Positions 4,006-23,968 of a stretch of DNA of 24,530 nt are shown here, piece by piece (the stretch's first letter is position 1; every line of letters starts with the position of its first letter). The position numbers were made by a program, and so were the translations under genes. Where the stretch lies: IMG/VR virus record IMGVR_UViG_3300017992_000761, positions 1 to 24,530 of that record, one strand, 5' to 3'. This DNA comes from a virus. The notes beneath the pieces were generated by a model. It had not been told where the DNA came from and made no database searches. It saw nothing but the letters and a program-made list of their open reading frames with translations.

Positions 4006-4772
4006 GGCACAATCGCTCCGAAATCGAGCTGAGACACGTCGAGGACAAACCCTGTGCTGACCTCGAGCGCCCAATTGAAGGTCATGTATGCGGGCAGCAG
4101 CCACGTCAGGTGGTGGAAGAGGTGCACATTCATCAGGTCGAGGAACTCGGCCTCGGTCATCGTATCCGGCTGCTGGACCTCGATCACCAGGTTGGCCCGC
4201 TCGCTGAGCCACGCGCCGCCGCCCAGACTGTAGGCGGCTGGCCCCGCGTTGACCCCCGGCCAGAAGGTCAGCGTGGGCGGGTTCGCCAAGTCAGTGCCGC
4301 GCTGCCGCCAGCTGCGCACGTAGGCGTCGCCGAGCAGCGTCTCCAGCGACGTGTCGACGTGGCGCTGGTTGTTGCCCTTGGCGGCCTGGTCCTTTGCGGC
4401 ACACCGGGCGCGGACCTCCGACCGGGAGTCGGTGGCAGCCGTGCGGACGCCGAGCGCCTTCACGTGAGACTCGAGCCGCTCATCTGAGGTGGCCGGCGTC
4501 TGGTTGGCGTGGAGCTTCTCTGCAGCTCGGGTGCGCCCCGCCTCGGCACGCGCAATTGCCACGTGCTCGATGTGCACCAGGGTGTCGTCATCCGTGGTGT
4601 AAGCAGACCCGCGCATGGCCTGCAGCTCGCGGTACCAACGCCACGCATAGGGGCGCTCGCCCTCGGTGTTACTATCCCGCTTGTCGAGCTCGCCGCCGTA
4701 GTGGCCGATCTTCCGATCGTGTGACCAGGGCGGCTTCCCCTCGAGCTTGGTCTTGTCGATGTGGACGCCCAT
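4002..4772 (-). CDS. Probable baseplate wedge protein, Mu gp48 / P2 gpI-like (DUF2313-type)
   Basis: A 256-residue protein. Residues about 90-165 contain an R-rich helix pair (SDERLESHVKALGVRT, then SRSEVRARC). Residues about 168-250 have the 'F-x-G-x-N-A-G' start and a C-terminal 'LLPAYMTFNWAL' segment, matching the P-A-h-x-h-x-F/W ending seen in gp48/gpI wedge proteins. It lies downstream of gp47, as gp48 does in Mu, although two extra genes intervene. Its likely role is to close the baseplate wedge and carry fibres. The fold is inferred from pattern and synteny. The first 80 residues, which are Lys/Arg/Glu-rich, are not recognised. Confidence 0.55.
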   Translation of the reverse strand: MGVHIDKTKLEGKPPWSHDRKIGHYGGELDKRDSNTEGERPYAWRWYRELQAMRGSAYTTDDDTLVHIEHVAIARAEAGRTRAAEKLHANQTPATSDERLESHVKALGVRTAATDSRSEVRARCAAKDQAAKGNNQRHVDTSLETLLGDAYVRSWRQRGTDLANPPTLTFWPGVNAGPAAYSLGGGAWLSERANLVIEVQQPDTMTEAEFLDLMNVHLFHHLTWLLPAYMTFNWALEVSTGFVLDVSQLDFGAIVP

Positions 4773-5758: not shown

Positions 5759-7276
5759 TTACTTCACGTAGATGCCGAAGTGGCGGGGCATCAGGATCCT
5801 CGGGTCGAGATCCACGGTGCCCGGCACGGCCGGCGCGGTGGAGCTGCGATATGACCAGTCGATGTCGGTGATCTCCGGGTGCGCCAGCTTCATGTTGAGC
5901 AGCTGGGTAATCGACAGGTCGCTGGGCCACTCGTCGGCGATGAATGGATGGCGGAGCGCTCGGGGCAGCCGGTTTGCGTCGCTGGTGTTCTCGCCGGGGC
6001 CGAGCGAGCGCATCTGGGTCCGCCACGTCTCGCCATAGGCGTCGATGTTCACCGCCGCCGGGCTGATGTAGTCGCCAATCGCCACGGCCACGTTCTGGCC
6101 ATCGACGAACGGCGCATCCAGCGTCAACTCCCAGACGCCCGTACCGCCGCCCACCCCCGTCACGAGTCGGGTGTAGAAGCGGCGCTCGGTGGGGCTCCAC
6201 CAGCTAACGTGCGTCTGGCCAGCAATCGGTGAGGTAGTCGTCGCCGCGTCCACCTTGATGTCGTAGGTGGCGCCAAGTGCCGTGACGGTCACCTTCGTGT
6301 CGCCGCCGTCAAGCGGGGGCCATGGCGTGGCGTCCACCCAGCCGGTGCCATTGCCGCCCTGCGACGCCGCGTCGGGGATGGTGACCTCGAGCGAGCAGTC
6401 AACACTGACGTCCACGCAGGTGCCAACCACAACCTCGTTGCCGTCCGGCATCGCGTCATGAATGGCGCCGCGCACAATGGCCAGCGCGGCCGTCGGCAGC
6501 GCGCGGGTGAAGCTGTTGCGGTCGGGGTCGATGTCTCGGATCACCACGACCTTGACCGAGCTGGGGCCGCCGAGCGCCGGGTAGACGAAGGCATACTGCG
6601 CCGACGCCAGCGCGTTCAGCGCCAGCTCGATCAGGTGGCCCGCGTTGCCGCCCTGCGGTACGTTGCGCCGCCGGTTGAGGATGCGCGCCCGCTTGCGCTC
6701 GTCGGTCTCCGCGTCTCGGCCGCCGCGCAGCGGGCTTTCGACGGAAACCTCCGCCTCGACCTGCACGTTGAGCGGCGGGTTGGTGAACTTGACGATTTCC
6801 CCGGCGTCCAGCTCGGTGTCGGCACCGGTGTCGATCGTGATCACGTTCACGGCCGAGCCGTTCACCACCACCGAATGGGTGCCGGCCACCTTGCCGCGCT
6901 TGCCGTTGGGCAAAAGGAACTGTGTACCGTCGACCAGTGTGGTGGCGCTGCCGCCGGTGACGCCGACGTAGATCTTACCCGAGCTCGGCGAGGCCTCGAC
7001 TACCGGCAGCCCCTCGGCCTCACGGATCTGGTCGAGCTTGTCGCCCGTAGCGGTGAGCACGTCGCTCTGCCGCTCGGCGATCCGAATGTTGGTGAACTGG
7101 ACGATTCCGACGTTGGCCAGCGCCGTGGCCAGGATGTGCCAGTCGGTGCCGGGCTGGGTCGGCGGCGTCGCGATCCCCAGGTCCTTGGCCTGGTTCTCGA
7201 TGTCTCGCAAGATCTCATCGCGCAGCTCCGGCGCACCGGAGGGCATCCAGATTTTCCCGACCTCGTATGATGCCAT
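5759..7276 (-). CDS. J: Baseplate wedge protein J (Mu gp47-like)
   Basis: A 505-residue protein with the baseplate-J pattern. The N-terminal helical domain (about 15-95) has LRDEILRDIENQAKDLGI and LTATGDKLDQIREAEGLP. A beta barrel follows (100-180: GKIYVGVTGGSATTLVDGTQ, then INTIDTGADTELDAG-like strands). The linker SPLRGGRDAETDERKRARIL (about 184-203) is the hallmark 'G-G-x-D-x-E-T-D-E-x-x-R-x-R' of this family. The C-terminal half is less typical and ends HFGIYVK. GAGGAG lies about 9 bases before the ATG. It directly follows gp25, as in Mu and P2. It forms the wedge dimers of the baseplate. Confidence 0.92.
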   Translation of the reverse strand: MASYEVGKIWMPSGAPELRDEILRDIENQAKDLGIATPPTQPGTDWHILATALANVGIVQFTNIRIAERQSDVLTATGDKLDQIREAEGLPVVEASPSSGKIYVGVTGGSATTLVDGTQFLLPNGKRGKVAGTHSVVVNGSAVNVITIDTGADTELDAGEIVKFTNPPLNVQVEAEVSVESPLRGGRDAETDERKRARILNRRRNVPQGGNAGHLIELALNALASAQYAFVYPALGGPSSVKVVVIRDIDPDRNSFTRALPTAALAIVRGAIHDAMPDGNEVVVGTCVDVSVDCSLEVTIPDAASQGGNGTGWVDATPWPPLDGGDTKVTVTALGATYDIKVDAATTTSPIAGQTHVSWWSPTERRFYTRLVTGVGGGTGVWELTLDAPFVDGQNVAVAIGDYISPAAVNIDAYGETWRTQMRSLGPGENTSDANRLPRALRHPFIADEWPSDLSITQLLNMKLAHPEITDIDWSYRSSTAPAVPGTVDLDPRILMPRHFGIYVK

Positions 7277-7280
7277 CGGG

Positions 7281-7724
7281 CTACTCCTCGGAGGACACGC
7301 GGTCTGCGAGCCCGGTGGTCAGATCGGTGTAGACCATCAACACGGTGGCTCGGCCGGTGGACAGCCGCCCCACGAGGAGCTGATCAATGCGGATCACCCT
7401 CTCTACGTGGGTCAGCTGGTGGTAGGCGGCGCGAACGTTTCGCCGCACGGTGTATTCAAACGTCTGATCCATCCGGTCCGGCAGCTCGATGCCCAGCTTC
7501 GGCAGCACCGTGGACGAGCCGCGGATGGTGCGCATGATCAGCTGGACCCGCTGGCGCACCGGCGGCATACCCTTGAGCTGAAGCGTCTTCGGGTCCTGCT
7601 CGAAGTCGCCCGTGCCCGGGTTGATCCACCGCGAGAGCGAGCCGTTGCCCGTGGGAATGGCTGCCACCTCCAATGGTGAGCCGAGCGCAATGGGGCTCGT
7701 AACTATGGGGCCAGCAATCCACAT
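7281..7724 (-). CDS. gp25-like baseplate wedge protein (Mu gp46 / P2 gpW type)
   Basis: A 147-residue protein. The family core is seen at about 50-80 (MPPVRQRVQLIMRTIRGSS, then LPKLGIELPD), which resembles the 'eav-xQ-x-h-x-h-L-x-T-x-x-GER-x-x-x-P-x-hG' motif of gp25 proteins. A helical segment and a beta C-terminus (TGRATVLMVYTDLTTGL) follow. Its place between spike and gp47 is the standard one. The ATG overlaps the stop of the proline-rich gene (TGATG). The protein joins wedges to the sheath. The N-terminal extension of about 30 residues is Pro/Gly-rich. Confidence 0.8.
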   Translation of the reverse strand: MWIAGPIVTSPIALGSPLEVAAIPTGNGSLSRWINPGTGDFEQDPKTLQLKGMPPVRQRVQLIMRTIRGSSTVLPKLGIELPDRMDQTFEYTVRRNVRAAYHQLTHVERVIRIDQLLVGRLSTGRATVLMVYTDLTTGLADRVSSEE

Positions 7725-8026
7725 CAGGCGGCGTCCAATGGGCAGGGGATCAGGAAATTGGGGAGAGGCGGCAGTTGCGGGGGCGCCGGCAGTCCCGGGA
7801 TCGGAATCGGTATCGAGAGCGACAGCGACAACCCGGGGATGGCGAGGCTGAACGTGGGCAACGGGGGGAGCTGCGGGGGTGCCGGAAGCCCAGGGATTGG
7901 AATGGGGATCGCCAGGTTGAGGCTCAATCCCGGGATGGCGATCGAGAACGACGGCAGGGGTGGGAGCGCAGGGATCCCCGGCAACCCGGGGATGGGCAGC
8001 GGGATCGTGAACGAGCAGAGGGACAC
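7724..8026 (-). CDS. Ile/Leu/Pro-repeat protein next to the spike gene
   Basis: A 100-residue protein made almost wholly of Pro, Ile, Leu, Ala, Gly and Ser. Three copies of a 32-residue unit (8-39, 40-71, and 72-94 incomplete) each contain an IP-x-P-I-P-G-L-P turn, an LPPLP box and an F-S-h-A-I-P-G-L-S strand. Apart from Asp98 there are no charged residues; Cys4 and Cys95 flank the repeats. It is tightly coupled to the genes on both sides: TGATG with gp25, and one base after the spike stop. It is therefore expressed with the central baseplate. It may form a fibrous or membrane-active element near the spike, but it matches no family I know. It is a true ORF because its codon-level repeat is in frame and the junctions are exact. 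Confidence 0.75.
   Translation of the reverse strand: MSLCSFTIPLPIPGLPGIPALPPLPSFSIAIPGLSLNLAIPIPIPGLPAPPQLPPLPTFSLAIPGLSLSLSIPIPIPGLPAPPQLPPLPNFLIPCPLDAA
7745..8005 (-). repeat. 96-base tandem repeat, about 2.7 copies, coding for the Pro-rich protein
   Basis: Units are approximately 7910-8005, 7814-7909 and 7745-7813 (partial). Each encodes the same 32-residue pattern. Copies two and three are closer to each other (both encode PGLPAPPQLPPLP) than to copy one (PGLPGIPALPPLP), pointing to a recent duplication of the inner unit. Confidence 0.8.
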
Positions 8027-14329: not shown

Positions 14330-15901
14330 TCAGCCGCTGCTGACCTCGGCGAGACGGAAGGTGGCCTGGTGCAGCAGGTCGATCACGTGCAGGTCGTGGC
14401 CCGTTTCGAGCCGGCCCGCGTTGTTCGGGTCGACGACACAGCGAAGGCCCTCCTTGGAGGCGTCCTCGTTCTGGATCAGGCCCTTGTCGGCGAAGTCGTC
14501 GATGAAGCCGCGGATAAACGGCTTGAACAGCGACGGGGTGATGACGCCCGGCACCAGCTTCTGGTTCGGGTTGACCGAACCATCACTGAGGTACTGGTCG
14601 TCCTTCAGGCGCTTGTTCTCGTAGTTCAGCGCGTAGTTGACCAGCACCGTGTCCATGTAGAGGTCGGCGACGCTCACCCGATGCGTCTCGGCGGCCCGGA
14701 AGTCGTCCTGGGTGCCGGCGCTGTTCTTCGATCGCGTGCTGATGCTCATCACGATGTAGCTGCCCACCTGGTCCGAAGCGATCGGGGTGAGCCCATCGGT
14801 GATGGCGTCGTTCTGGTTGGTCTGGGTGGGCCAATCCGCCTGGGAGTAGGCCGGCGGCACGAGCCAGTCGCTCGCGTTGCGGTAGCTGTCGAAGTTGTGG
14901 GCGGCGAGCACGCTCTCGCGCTTCTGCCGGATGCTGGCCACGTTGGCGGCGAGCTCGGCCGGGTCGGCCCAGCTGTTGGGCTGCCAGGCGATCTGGAGCC
15001 GCTCGTAGTTGCGCGCCGTCGCCAGCGTCTGCGCGTTGGCCAGCGTGCCCTGGTAGCCCGCGATGCCCACCGAGCGCAGGCCCGGGTTGGGTTCGCTCTT
15101 GTTGCTAATGTGGGTCTGCAGGTTGCCCAGGCTGGTGGCATCCCAGCACGTGGTGACGATGTAGTAGTAGCGGGCCGCGTTGATGGTCGCGAGCGCCGTC
15201 GCCAGGTTGGCGGCCTCCGTGGTCGAACCCTCGGCGCCGGTCGTGCCGGTGCCCAGGCCGAGCGCGTCGGTGGTGCCGCCGTTCTCGGTCGCCACGGAGG
15301 TGGTCTTGCCGGCGTCAATGAATGCGCGGACCCGGATCGCTCCGGTGGTGCCGTCGCCCTGGCTGATGCCGTTGATCTTGGCCTCGAGGGTCAGCACGCC
15401 GGCCGCGTTGTCGGCGGTGACCGGCAGGTGGGAGCGATCGTTGATTGCCGCCTTCATGGCCGTGGCGATCGTGGTGACCGTACTCGCGTCGGTGAACGCG
15501 ACCGTGATCTCCTCGCCGCAGATCTCCACCCCGGTGACGCCGGTGGCGGTGGGGTCGTCGGTCCATGTGACGGTGAGGTCGGCCTTGGCCGGGGCGCCGC
15601 CGCTGGTCTCCGCGTAGGGCAGGGCCCAGAGCTTGGTGATCTTGTTCGTCTTGAGGATCCGCCGGAGCGCCCGGTGGAGCGGGGAGCCGGCGCCAGCGCC
15701 GTCGATCGCGGTCTGCTCGTTGGTGACCTCGTAGACGGTGTTTGCCGTCCAGGTGCCCGAGCCGGTGAGCTTGGGCGCCACCACAATGATGTCGCGCTGG
15801 CCGGCGGCAGCCGTCGCGGGACCCTGGGCGAAGAGGATCTCGGCATACGAGCCGGGGACGCGCCAGGTGGACGGGATGCCGAGGATCGGAATCTCTGCCA
15901 T
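14330..15901 (-). CDS. Tail sheath protein (Mu gpL-like)
   Basis: A 523-residue protein. The N-terminus (about 10-60: STWRVPGSYAEILFAQGP, then GQRDIIVVAPKLTGSGT) matches the Mu gpL start, where the sheath's inner strand exchange begins. Residues about 120-215 form a domain with 'VTGVEICGEEITVAFTDAST' strands. The C-terminal end (about 450-520: DGSVNPNQKLVPGVITPSLF, KGLIQN, and NNAGRLETGHDLHVIDLLHQ) matches the conserved sheath C-terminal domain. AGGAG precedes the ATG. It contracts to drive the tube. Confidence 0.92.
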   Translation of the reverse strand: MAEIPILGIPSTWRVPGSYAEILFAQGPATAAAGQRDIIVVAPKLTGSGTWTANTVYEVTNEQTAIDGAGAGSPLHRALRRILKTNKITKLWALPYAETSGGAPAKADLTVTWTDDPTATGVTGVEICGEEITVAFTDASTVTTIATAMKAAINDRSHLPVTADNAAGVLTLEAKINGISQGDGTTGAIRVRAFIDAGKTTSVATENGGTTDALGLGTGTTGAEGSTTEAANLATALATINAARYYYIVTTCWDATSLGNLQTHISNKSEPNPGLRSVGIAGYQGTLANAQTLATARNYERLQIAWQPNSWADPAELAANVASIRQKRESVLAAHNFDSYRNASDWLVPPAYSQADWPTQTNQNDAITDGLTPIASDQVGSYIVMSISTRSKNSAGTQDDFRAAETHRVSVADLYMDTVLVNYALNYENKRLKDDQYLSDGSVNPNQKLVPGVITPSLFKPFIRGFIDDFADKGLIQNEDASKEGLRCVVDPNNAGRLETGHDLHVIDLLHQATFRLAEVSSG

Positions 15902-19752: not shown

Positions 19753-20841
19753 CTATGCGTCCTCCGAGTAGCGGACCGAGCGGACGAACCGGTTGTCAGC
19801 CAGGCCGAGGGCCAGGTCTGCCAGCCAGATCACCTTTGCGGTCTCGCCGTAGTTGTCATCGGACGCTGCGCGTACCGACGGGGCCCGGCCGATGCCGCCC
19901 ATGAAGACGCCGGGCGAGATGGCGTGGCCCTTGTGAATGTCCACCGACGAGCTGTTGGCCGTCTTGGTGAGCGTGTTGGACTGGAAGCAGTGGAACTCCG
20001 GCGTGCTGCCGAAGTAGCTCGGGAACAGCGGGTTGGTCTCCTTGTGACCTTCCGCGTAGGCCGCGAACTGCGGGTCATCCTTGAGCTGCTTCTTGCCCGT
20101 GGGGGTGGCGACGAAGATGCGCCGGCCGTCGCCCAGGGTGGGCAGGTCGGCCTCGTCCATCTGCTTGGCGCAGCGGCTCATCTGCTCGTAGGTGAGCGGG
20201 AACATGCCGGCCGCGGTCGCGTCGTTGTCGGCGCTCATGCCCTCGGGGTAGGTGGTGGCCGAAGCGTTGTCGGCGAGCAGCACCATCAGGGCGTCGATCA
20301 GCCGGTGGAAGTCGCGCTTGAGGTGGGTGCCGACGAACTTGGCGAGGTTGTGCACGCCCATCGTGGCGTCGAAGGCGTCCAGGGCGTAGGGCGCCACGCG
20401 GCTGTTGGTGGAGTCGTAGGGACCACCCAGCCGCTTGATGGTGAGCTTCACCTGCTCGGAGCCCGCCGTGATCGGCACGGTGGAGATCGTCTGGTTGGTG
20501 CCGATCTGCCGAGCCGCCTCGGTGTAGGTCGAGTTGGTGAACCGCGGCCGGTTGAATCGCAGGGTGTGGCCGGGGCCGCCCTTGAAGTTCGCCTTCGCGG
20601 CGAACAGTTCGCTGGGCAGGTTGGTGCCGTTCAGCATCAGCCGACCGGACTCTGCGCTGGCGTAGTCGGCGCCTTGGCCACCGACGGGGCGCCAGCCGAG
20701 CGAGTCGGGCACGCCGAGCTCGATGGCGAGCGCCTGCAGGAACAGGCTGGCGTAGAAATACTGCGGTTCGGGCTGGACCAGAAGCTGAGCCGAGGTGATG
20801 TCGAAGAATTCCTCGGGCAGTTCTTCGCGAGAGATGGGCAT
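19753..20841 (-). CDS. Major capsid protein (HK97-fold type)
   Basis: A 362-residue protein. Features fit an HK97-fold capsid: a loop region (about 70-110: NLPSELFAAKANFKGGPGHTL), a long helical spine segment (about 160-190: FDATMGVHNLAKFVGTHLKR followed by LIDALMVLLAD), an A-domain with helix YEQMSRCAKQMDEADLP, and a C-terminal VSVR-like end (RFVRSVRYSEDA). No protease-cleavable delta domain is obvious; a separate scaffold gene precedes it. A purine-rich AAAGGAAAG lies before the ATG. Sequence identity to a named family cannot be checked here. Confidence 0.85.
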   Translation of the reverse strand: MPISREELPEEFFDITSAQLLVQPEPQYFYASLFLQALAIELGVPDSLGWRPVGGQGADYASAESGRLMLNGTNLPSELFAAKANFKGGPGHTLRFNRPRFTNSTYTEAARQIGTNQTISTVPITAGSEQVKLTIKRLGGPYDSTNSRVAPYALDAFDATMGVHNLAKFVGTHLKRDFHRLIDALMVLLADNASATTYPEGMSADNDATAAGMFPLTYEQMSRCAKQMDEADLPTLGDGRRIFVATPTGKKQLKDDPQFAAYAEGHKETNPLFPSYFGSTPEFHCFQSNTLTKTANSSSVDIHKGHAISPGVFMGGIGRAPSVRAASDDNYGETAKVIWLADLALGLADNRFVRSVRYSEDA

Positions 20842-20889: not shown

Positions 20890-21672
20890 CTATGCGTCCG
20901 GGTAGATGTCTGCCCCGTGGGCGTTCAGGTAGTGAGCCGCCTTCACGGGGTTTTCTTTGCGGAGCTGCGCGTAGACCGCCTTGTGATCGGGCGGCGACGT
21001 GTCAGCGTCGGTTGGAGCAGAGCGCGGCGGCGTGGTCGTCGCCGGCTGTTGCGGAGTGGTGGGTGGTTGAGCGGGAGGCGTCGCTGCGGCGGGCTGGGTG
21101 CCCGCGTTGGCTGCGTCCTCGGCGCCCTGTTGTTGCTGCCCGGTGGCAGCGGGTTGCGCCTCGCCCCAGGTGGGACGGAGCGCGTCGATGGTGCGGAGCT
21201 GGGCCGCGGCGTCGTCGTCACCGGCGATTGCGCACACGGCGGCGCGCTGCGGCTCGGTGAGTGTGGCCATCTCGATCTTGCACCGCTGCGCGATGGTCTC
21301 GGAGAGGGCCGCGTTCTCCTTCTGGAGCTTGTCGGCCTCGGCCTTGGCGTCGGCCGCCTTCTGCTCGGCGGTCTTCTCGGCCTCGAGCTTGGCCTCGTGA
21401 GCCGTCTTCAGCTCGGCGATCTGCTCGGCGGTCATGCCGATCTCGCTGAACACCTCCGCCTTGGCGCTCTGCTTGGCCCGGTCGAGCCGGTCCTTGAGCC
21501 ACGGGGGGTTCTGCGGATCGCCCTGGGGAGGTGCTGGGGCCGCTGCCGGCGTGGCAGCTGGTTGCGCCGGCGGTGTGGCGGGCGGCTGCCCACCGTCCGT
21601 GCCGGCGCCTTGGTCGTTGCTGGTGGTGCTGGGCGTAGTGGTGCCCTTCGCGTCGTCGTTTCCGTCGCTCAT
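20890..21672 (-). CDS. Scaffolding protein
   Basis: A 260-residue protein typical of scaffolds: Pro/Ala/Thr-rich disordered N-terminus (about 1-58), a Glu/Lys/Ala coiled coil (about 60-125: GMTAEQIAELKTAHEAKLEA, then KAADAKAEADKLQKENAAL), a Gln/Pro/Ala-rich linker, and a short C-terminal helical tail (HKAVYAQLRKENPVKAAHYL) that could bind the capsid protein. It precedes the capsid gene, and GGAGG lies 7 bases upstream of the ATG. The sequence is highly biased, as scaffolds are. Confidence 0.85.
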   Translation of the reverse strand: MSDGNDDAKGTTTPSTTSNDQGAGTDGGQPPATPPAQPAATPAAAPAPPQGDPQNPPWLKDRLDRAKQSAKAEVFSEIGMTAEQIAELKTAHEAKLEAEKTAEQKAADAKAEADKLQKENAALSETIAQRCKIEMATLTEPQRAAVCAIAGDDDAAAQLRTIDALRPTWGEAQPAATGQQQQGAEDAANAGTQPAAATPPAQPPTTPQQPATTTPPRSAPTDADTSPPDHKAVYAQLRKENPVKAAHYLNAHGADIYPDA

Positions 21673-21770: not shown

Positions 21771-22058
21771 CTACGACTCGGTGACCTTGGCCACCAGCAC
21801 GTAGGTGTCCACGATGCGCGTGGTGTCGTCGAGCTTGGTTCCGCTGTGGCGGGCGTAGGCCTTGACAAACACCGTGTCGCCGACCTTGCAGGGCGACTTG
21901 GGGCCGACGGCGACGACCAGGGCCAGGGTGGCCGCGTCACTGTCGTCCGGGGGGCTGACCGCCCCGCTGGGGTCCTCGGAGCCCTGGGCCTTCTGGGGCT
22001 CGGGCTCCAAGAACTGGAGGGCCAGGTGGCCCTCGAATGGCTTGATGCTGGGCGTCAT
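21771..22058 (-). CDS. GroES-like co-chaperonin candidate
   Basis: A 95-residue protein (the frame continues upstream, but ATG 22058 follows the neighbour's stop and gives a compact protein beginning MTPSIKPFEGHLALQFLEPE). The layout resembles GroES/T4 gp31: an N-terminal 'I-x-P-x-x-G' strand; a polar flexible segment (about 20-43) where the GroEL-binding mobile loop would be; then LALVVAVGPKSPCKVGDTVFV (46-66), close to the 'G-x-V-h-A-V-G-x-x-x-x-x-V-K-x-G-D-x-V' core; then a C-terminal strand TYVLVAKV. The hydrophobic GIVL loop tripeptide is not seen. A phage co-chaperonin beside the capsid genes would parallel T4 gp31. Confidence 0.6.
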   Translation of the reverse strand: MTPSIKPFEGHLALQFLEPEPQKAQGSEDPSGAVSPPDDSDAATLALVVAVGPKSPCKVGDTVFVKAYARHSGTKLDDTTRIVDTYVLVAKVTES

Positions 22059-22069
22059 GGCGCCGTCGC

Positions 22070-22474
22070 TCAGGACACGGTCACGGACACGAGCACGCCG
22101 ACGCCGTGGGTGACGCCGCTGGTGTCCACCTCGGTGCCGTCGTTGTCGGTGAGCTCGCCGGTCACCTTGTCGGTGGAGACGGCGAGCGCGTCGATCGAAG
22201 CGCCGAGCATGTAGACCGCCTGCGGGGTGCTGTCCTGGCCGCCGAAGGCGGGGGCAGCCCATTCCACGGTCCGGGTCTTGCCGTCGCGGCAGCGGGCCGA
22301 GATGGTGGCGCCCACGTCCTCGATCGCAGCGGTGTCGCTGGACGCGGTGTAGGCAGCGAAGTCGGCCGTCAGCAGCCAGACCTCGCGAGCGTCGCGGGCA
22401 CTGACGGTGCCGGCGCCGGCGAAGGGTGCGTGGACGAGGGTGACGCCGCGAATGGTTCCGTCGATTTCAGCCAT
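22070..22474 (-). CDS. Head-module beta-rich virion protein
   Basis: A 134-residue protein. After a Gly-rich start it has the pattern DAREVWLLTADFAAYTASSDTAAI, then VGATISARCRDGKTRTVEW, then a second set of strands ending VGVLVSVTVS. It may be a decoration or head-completion protein. AAGGAGA sits 9 bases before the ATG, and the next gene (GroES-like) follows 11 bases after its stop. No motif identifies it further. Confidence 0.65.
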   Translation of the reverse strand: MAEIDGTIRGVTLVHAPFAGAGTVSARDAREVWLLTADFAAYTASSDTAAIEDVGATISARCRDGKTRTVEWAAPAFGGQDSTPQAVYMLGASIDALAVSTDKVTGELTDNDGTEVDTSGVTHGVGVLVSVTVS

Positions 22475-23169: not shown

Positions 23170-23439
23170 TCAGTCCTTCTTGGTGGTGCGGCGGCTGCGG
23201 CGGGCCTTGCGCTCGAGTGCTGGCTTGGTGGGTGGCAGCTCGTCTGCCTCCCGAGCGTCGGCGAGCGCCTTGGCCAGCGGGTGCTGGTAGGTCCACGGTC
23301 GGGGCTCGGCCTTCGCCACGGGCTTGGGCGCCGGCTTGGCCTTCGCAGTCCCGGGCGCCCACGACGCCTCGCCGCAGATGGGGCAGTAGGTCGCGTCGGC
23401 GTCACACTTGGCGCCGCAGATGGCACAGAGCTTGGTCAT
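23170..23439 (-). CDS. Zinc-ribbon small protein with basic tail
   Basis: An 89-residue protein; ATG 23439 is chosen because GGGAG lies about 7 bases upstream and the Cys motif follows at once. C5-x2-C8 and C19-x2-C22 form a zinc ribbon, and an extra C12 lies between them. Residues 28-46 are Ala/Pro/Lys-rich, and the C-terminus ends with a strongly basic tail (LERKARRSRRTTKKD). Nucleic-acid or protein contact is likely; the target is unknown. Confidence 0.7.
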   Translation of the reverse strand: MTKLCAICGAKCDADATYCPICGEASWAPGTAKAKPAPKPVAKAEPRPWTYQHPLAKALADAREADELPPTKPALERKARRSRRTTKKD

Positions 23440-23455
23440 GGTGTCTCCCGTCGGG

Positions 23456-23968
23456 TCAGTCGTCCCAGATTTGGCTACAGGCCTCGGCGCCGTCGGCGAT
23501 GGCGTCCTTGCGCTTGGGCGGGGCCGGGTGTGTCCCGTCCACCTTGGTGCCCTCGTCGTCGAGGTAGGCACCCAGGGGCGAGACGGGCAGCCCAGCGATG
23601 CCGAGCGTGCAGCCGGCCCACATGTCGGCGCTCAGCTCGTCGGTGCGCTTGCCGCCGTGGTGGTCGATGAGGTGGCCGAGCTCGTGGCCGAAGATGCCGA
23701 CGATGGCCGGGTAGCCGTAACGGCTGGCGATGCGCTCCAGCTCGGGGCGGTTGTAGACGACGCGGATACGTGGCCCGATGAAGAACACACAGGCGGGGTC
23801 GACCGCCTCAGAGGGGAGCAGCTGCGGGGTCTTGCACTCGGGGCAGACCAGCGACAACGACTGGAGGGCGTCGCCGAAAGCTTGCTCCGCGAGACCCACC
23901 TGGACGCACGGGGCGGCGGGCTGGGCGCAGGCGGCGAGCAGAGCGAGGGCGGGGAGCCAGCGGGTCAT
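23456..23968 (-). CDS. Lipoprotein with M48-type zinc metallopeptidase motifs
   Basis: A 170-residue protein. An N-terminal lipobox (MTRWLPALALLAAC, Cys14) predicts export and lipid attachment. HELGH (95-99) is the zinc-binding motif; ELSAD (111-115) has the E-x-x-A-D third-ligand pattern; THPAPPKR (146-153) matches the M48 'T-H-P-x-x-x-x-R' end motif. A CPEC pair (42-45) may be a small extra zinc site. It is short for an M48 protease: core only. The gene overlaps its upstream neighbour by four bases (ATGA). A secreted, membrane-anchored protease in a capsid operon suggests a cargo or lysogenic/lysis accessory, not a head component. Confidence 0.72.
   Translation of the reverse strand: MTRWLPALALLAACAQPAAPCVQVGLAEQAFGDALQSLSLVCPECKTPQLLPSEAVDPACVFFIGPRIRVVYNRPELERIASRYGYPAIVGIFGHELGHLIDHHGGKRTDELSADMWAGCTLGIAGLPVSPLGAYLDDEGTKVDGTHPAPPKRKDAIADGAEACSQIWDD

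Follow-up and report, generated by a model that had tools for sequence, protein, structure and literature searches.

Head-gene block of the window and its GroES-like gene

The window, i.e. the whole stretch of DNA analysed here, comprises positions 1 to 24,530 (24,530 bases) of the IMG/VR virus record IMGVR_UViG_3300017992_000761. Its head genes lie on the minus strand and are transcribed in the order decoration-like, GroES-like, scaffold-like and major capsid protein. The GroES-like (Cpn10-family) gene occupies 21771..22058 (−), where the ATG is at 22058 and the stop codon ends at 21771, and encodes a protein of 95 aa. The gene upstream of it, at 22070..22474 (−), encodes a 134-aa protein without a PHROG match, to which a head-decoration-like role was assigned from its position and conservation. 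Directly downstream are the gene of a 260-aa, low-complexity protein (20890..21672, −), which gave only weak matches and is putatively a scaffold by its position, and that of the 362-aa major capsid protein (19753..20841, −; phrog_1357 major head protein, E = 4e-4), about 40 kDa as estimated from its length. The placement of the GroES-like gene ahead of the scaffold and capsid genes, as made earlier from the sequence alone, is thus correct.

The window also encodes a Mu gpL-type tail sheath (14330..15901, −; phrog_165, E = 1.5e-60; 50% identity with a Mu-like gpL sheath) together with a baseplate J-like protein (5759..7276, −; PF04865, E = 3.8e-20) and baseplate hub and wedge proteins. By these matches the tail of the phage is predicted to be contractile and of the Mu type. 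Several other ORFs of this strand deserve mention. In the head region, 23456-23968 (−) encodes a small secreted-looking protein with an H-E-L-G-H motif that weakly matched peptidase M48 (E = 0.0047), and 23170-23571 (−) a small protein whose paired C-x-x-C motifs are of the zinc-ribbon type; L007, L018 and L024 encode proteins resembling the latter upstream of their capsid genes. A 100-aa ORF made of I-P-G-L-P / P-P-Q-L-P-P-L-P repeat units lies between the baseplate genes (7724-8026, −). Over its C-terminal 67 residues, the product of 1268-1927 (−) is similar to the terminal part of phrog_24355 (polysaccharide deacetylase; E = 4.9e-7), and these residues are perhaps a shared appendage domain.

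A longer reading of the GroES-like ORF, beginning at 22262 with an in-frame ATG that falls within the upstream gene, is possible. We consider 22058 to be the better start, because most of the homologues begin at that point of the alignment and because it lies 11 nt after the stop codon of the decoration-like gene. For the comparisons below we used n = 14 homologues, hereafter the family, none of which (0/14) comes from a named phage isolate. Among close pairs of family members dN/dS was about 0.1–0.3, with dS high or saturated, and among more distant pairs 0.5–0.7; these figures are rough, as dS is near saturation in several pairs. The gene is under purifying selection in the close pairs. The ORF is not due to chance, since homologues occur in the same slot of other contigs, synonymous changes far exceed nonsynonymous ones in the close pairs, its product matches PHROG 3188, and two AlphaFold (AF2) models found Cpn10 first.

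Fold, mobile loop and roof region of the family

The window protein matched PHROG 3188, "co-chaperonin GroES", at E = 1e-4 and Pfam Cpn10 (PF00166) at E = 0.082, which is under Pfam's cut-off. Seven of 12 family members matched Cpn10 (best E = 2.4e-6), and the match passed the cut-off in 1 of the 14 carrier records. When the 12-member family alignment was compared with a 9-member GroES/gp31 set by hhalign, the two were matched at E = 3e-10 with a probability of 96.8%. Searching PDB sequences with the family profile yielded 18 matches with E values no higher than 1; 17 were co-chaperonins, headed by Chaperonin 11 (E = 1.1e-5). A phmmer search of the PDB with the single sequence gave chance matches only.

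We modelled single chains with AlphaFold. The model of the window protein had a pLDDT of 78, with low confidence at residues 22-27 and 31-36, and that of the homologue from L097 a pLDDT of 85.5. Against 1p3h, the window model gave a VIA Z of 10.5 (rmsd 3.9, 84 aligned) and the L097 model a Z of 9.2 (rmsd 3.1, 81 aligned). Cpn10/GroES came first in the fold lists of both models, where gp31 was also listed. In the BFVD list, most of the named rows were viral GroES or co-chaperonin predictions, several rows were nameless and one was uncharacterised. The sequence-only reading had described a GroES-like order of strands and a G-D-x-V core, and both were found as described, the core reading K-V-G-D-T-V; the best matches were neither to a fold unlike GroES nor to unrelated head proteins. 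The profiles and the models together confirmed the window protein as a genuine Cpn10/GroES homologue with the GroES beta-barrel as its predicted fold. That it is instead a barrel of another origin, e.g. the N-terminal domain of an alcohol dehydrogenase, or an unrelated head protein, is highly improbable: ADH_N did match 2 of 12 family members (best 0.0088) and dehydrogenases come next in the fold lists, but Cpn10 matched more members and matched them better, co-chaperonins led both fold lists and had the higher Z, and the profile search of the PDB, led by Cpn10, contained just one dehydrogenase, at E = 0.69, as its sole match that was not a co-chaperonin.

In GroES, the I-V-L of the mobile loop touches L234, L237 and V264 of GroEL, and the L27A mutant of GroES is unable to interact with GroEL (PMC3514286). 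In the window protein the equivalent region (residues 18-44; 21927..22007, −) has 27 residues, is acidic, and its longest hydrophobic run is 1. The residues G-A-V-S (21954..21965, −), placed by eye, correspond approximately in position to G-I-V-L of GroES and G-L-I-I of gp31; the loop diverges too far to be aligned exactly.

We aligned the 14 family members with 61 cellular Cpn10 and 25 other phage co-chaperonins, including gp31, and read as the loop the stretch corresponding to residues 16–36 of the E. coli protein. The cellular set represents 61 of 62 loci (L133 stayed outside the alignment and its place was read separately as L205), and for Vibrio phage Kuja (L202), where no gene is annotated at the place, the matched frame was translated. 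A hydrophobic run of 3 was present in the loop of 61/61 cellular proteins, 22/25 other phage proteins and 0/14 family members, counts in which the cellular controls are best-scoring matches and hence biased, the phage controls are biased toward their queries (E. coli GroES, one Vibrio phage GroES and gp31), and related sequences do not count independently. D485, VAP7 and YC, the three exceptions among the phages, retain G-I-A-L, G-L-T-L and G-L-V-T. Under a looser rule (small-hydrophobic-x-hydrophobic), the motif was found in 61/61 cellular proteins, 24/25 phage proteins and 1/14 family members, the sole family match being 'DVGV' of L012, which is not Gly-led. The hydrophobic tripeptide that docks on GroEL is missing throughout the family, so that its reported lack in the window protein holds for 14/14 members. 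The mean net charge of the loop was −6.2 in the family, −1.6 in the other phages and −1.1 in cells. Acidity is conserved among the family loops, while length and sequence are variable; one subgroup shares P-S-D-S-Y-N.

The roof region of the window protein is shortened to GPKSPCKV (21882..21905, −), i.e. 8 residues vs 18 in cellular GroES. It has 8–11 residues in the family, 18 in all 61 cellular proteins and 11 in gp31, which is one of 13 short-roofed proteins among the 25 other phage co-chaperonins. The roof hairpin is missing in the family, as in gp31.

Divergent Cpn10 paralogues with a short roof but a hydrophobic loop motif were observed in L205, L206, L207 and L208, from the phylum of a Phycisphaerales MAG. 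When the loops of weak cellular Cpn10 paralogues were read by eye, a hydrophobic-x-hydrophobic motif was present in 10/10. We rejected an origin of the family from the weak paralogues of this MAG's phylum, as they retain the motif and barely match the family profile.

Carriage of the gene among capsid lineages

Relatives of the capsid protein were collected from 23 + 79 viral loci and two MAG loci, which gave 72 unique capsid sequences. Carriage was counted over the 64 lineages whose capsid protein is near-full and whose upstream sequence spans 1.5 kb or more; 12 of them carried the GroES-like gene and it was absent from 52. Two further members (L193 and L194) were found by a search with L062. 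In 36 of 53 non-carriers, the interval between decoration and scaffold genes had no ORF of at least 55 aa, with gaps of 64–131 nt, apart from an odd negative gap value given by one of the 36, L101. Other ORFs or a different spacing were observed in 9/53, and 8/53 had no recognised decoration-like gene. Permissive HMMs run on 332 slot ORFs disclosed one hidden GroES-like candidate, in L099.

This 85-aa slot ORF (L099:2956-3213; HMM E = 0.0036 among the 332 slot ORFs; hhalign probability 81% over 58 columns) may, from its sequence, be a still more degenerate Cpn10. In L194 (4001-6989) the order is rearranged, with the GroES-like and scaffold-like genes followed by those of the decoration-like and capsid proteins. 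An unrelated ORF of ∼98 aa fills the slot in L020, L021 and L025 (about 4066-4369).

A prophage-host search via the capsid protein returned two MAG contigs only (Phycisphaerales and Burkholderiales), 0/2 with the gene. GroEL was found in 0 of the 14 carrier records, many or most of which are fragments, so that its absence is not proved. No second Cpn10 was found in these 14 records with the Pfam model, which detects only 4/14 family members.

The GroES-like proteins of L097 and L004 are 79% identical, vs 23% for their decoration-like, 41% for their scaffold and 43% for their capsid proteins. The DNA of these two loci is similar from the ATG of the gene in both as far as the opening codons of the scaffold gene; in the comparison with L009 the similarity continues into that gene. 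Capsid proteins that are 89% identical occur with the gene (L006) and without it (L022), and the same is true of a 78% identical pair, L097 with and L099 without the gene. On a quick capsid tree, carriage needs 9 changes vs a shuffled mean of 11.4; it is scattered over the tree but not random. The GroES-like gene is an optional cassette that has moved alone between phages of unlike capsid type. Near-identical capsids with and without the gene, its single-gene exchange and the selection acting on it together led us to conclude that it is selected but optional, and not tied to capsid type. Therefore, carriage follows something other than capsid type, and a host factor would be the obvious candidate.

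Known co-chaperonins and the proposed function

The family shares with cellular GroES/Cpn10 the barrel fold, the strand order, the K-x-G-D-x-V core and the N- and C-terminal strands, but it is without docking tripeptide and roof hairpin, its loop is acidic and the window protein stays below the PF00166 cut-off. T4 gp31 and its Straboviridae relatives are likewise phage-encoded, roofless and of the same fold; however, gp31 keeps its G-L-I-I in the loop, and gene 31 of T4 does not adjoin the capsid gene, whereas the window gene lies in the capsid block. gp31 serves head folding in T4, where it folds the ∼56 kDa gp23, and it is functional although it has no roof loops and is only 14% identical to GroES (PMC6318259). 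The window protein matches the profile of PHROG 3188, but in the sampled GroES of phage isolates the docking motif is retained. Xanthomonas phage PBR31, Shewanella phage 1/44 and Vibrio phage 1.049 have a GroES gene by terminase, portal, scaffold and capsid genes, or between capsid and tail genes; unlike the family, these proteins have the canonical tripeptide and an 18-residue roof. Chloroplast Cpn10(1)/(2) of Arabidopsis are roofless as the family is, but they are plastid proteins acting in hetero-oligomers. Cpn10(1) of Arabidopsis is active only in hetero-oligomers with Cpn20, and the mobile loop of Cpn10(1)/(2) is said to vary only slightly (PMC4242682). Chaperonin 11 of Chlamydomonas, the top profile match of the family, is also a plastid protein.

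Phage GroES genes, including some in head modules, are known already; phages having GroES only, with no gene for a GroEL partner, are well known (PMC7185714). The CmdTAC paper concerns T4 gp23 and gp31 and, considered as a possible defence link, contributed nothing on the present family (PMC11618068). Among phage records, 1359 contain gp31 relatives and 90 contain other GroES. The chaperonins of virioplankton are reportedly the subject of Marine et al. 2017. Among the open-access papers searched, and judging by titles and the beginnings of abstracts, we recognised none on a family of phage co-chaperonins that lacks the docking motif. In tblastn searches of 50,697 phage records, the window protein reached only one Vibrio phage co-chaperonin family, at E = 8 and with its docking motif retained, and two further family members gave no match. 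The expectation that such a gene would be unusual in a phage of this type was therefore only partly right: phage co-chaperonins are common, some of them in head modules, but by tblastn with these three members the family has no counterpart in the phage records. What is new is a Cpn10 family that lacks both tripeptide and roof and travels as an optional cassette.

Our preferred reading, with a probability of about 50%, is that of a host-facing, accessory co-chaperonin, optional and exchangeable, which is made with the capsid genes and does not dock on GroEL via the usual tripeptide. The N- and C-terminal strands of the barrel would still hold rings together, and the protein would retune the host GroEL/GroES machine during capsid-protein synthesis, bypassing canonical tripeptide docking. 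It may do so as a low-affinity, open lid that contacts GroEL through other parts of the loop, or by assembling with GroES subunits of the host into mixed rings that are partly loopless and roofless. Such mixed rings have a precedent, because the roofless Cpn10(1) works only with Cpn20 and the top PDB match of the family is Chaperonin 11. Any link to GroEL is inferred, since the best-known route to it is missing in every member. A more specific form, in which a 'loopless subunit' with intact ring strands is taken up into the GroES rings of the host, or sits on GroEL as a cap making fewer or other contacts, and thereby opens or weakens the folding chamber, appears unlikely.

The main rival to a host-facing co-chaperonin is a repurposed barrel, i.e. 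a GroEL-independent Cpn10 ring that lost its docking and acts in head assembly (e.g. on scaffold, portal or decoration protein) or as a part of the particle. The head-gene operon fits a role in the particle itself, and this reading would accommodate the slot between the decoration-like and scaffold genes, the loss of the tripeptide in 14/14 members together with that of the roof, and a loop in which acidity is conserved (mean net charge −6.2) but length and sequence are not. We regard it as possible though doubtful, as 52/64 lineages manage without the gene. A host partner is favoured over a capsid partner because the gene was exchanged alone among phages that share only 23–47% identity in their decoration, scaffold and capsid proteins. 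It is distinctly unlikely that the protein is a standard gp31-like co-chaperonin, which replaces GroES on the host GroEL to fold the capsid protein of the phage. The Cpn10 fold, the roofless barrel and the nearness of the capsid gene agree with such a function, and gp31 itself is functional at its low identity to GroES; but gp31 and the other phage co-chaperonins keep the docking motif (22/25 by the strict and 24/25 by the loose rule, vs 0/14 and 1/14 in the family), and capsid proteins of 89% identity occur on either side of carriage. Moreover, the 362-aa capsid protein is, by length, small enough for GroEL-GroES and below the ∼56 kDa of gp23, and the gene crossed capsid types. The direct equivalence to gp31 that had been suggested from the sequence is not supported by these observations, and the reading we favour differs from a simple replacement of GroES of the gp31 type.

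In the sets compared here the docking tripeptide is nearly universal, and gp31 serves as the paradigm of how phages control chaperonin folding. A Cpn10 family that is under purifying selection and has no tripeptide is a natural test of whether such proteins cap by other contacts, form mixed rings or have moved to head assembly. If the family did act as loopless subunits of host rings, it would represent a capture of the chaperonin by the virus that works through the mixing of subunits and not through replacement of GroES. The presence and absence of the gene beside near-identical capsids make the question of what the family does without the tripeptide testable with natural pairs.
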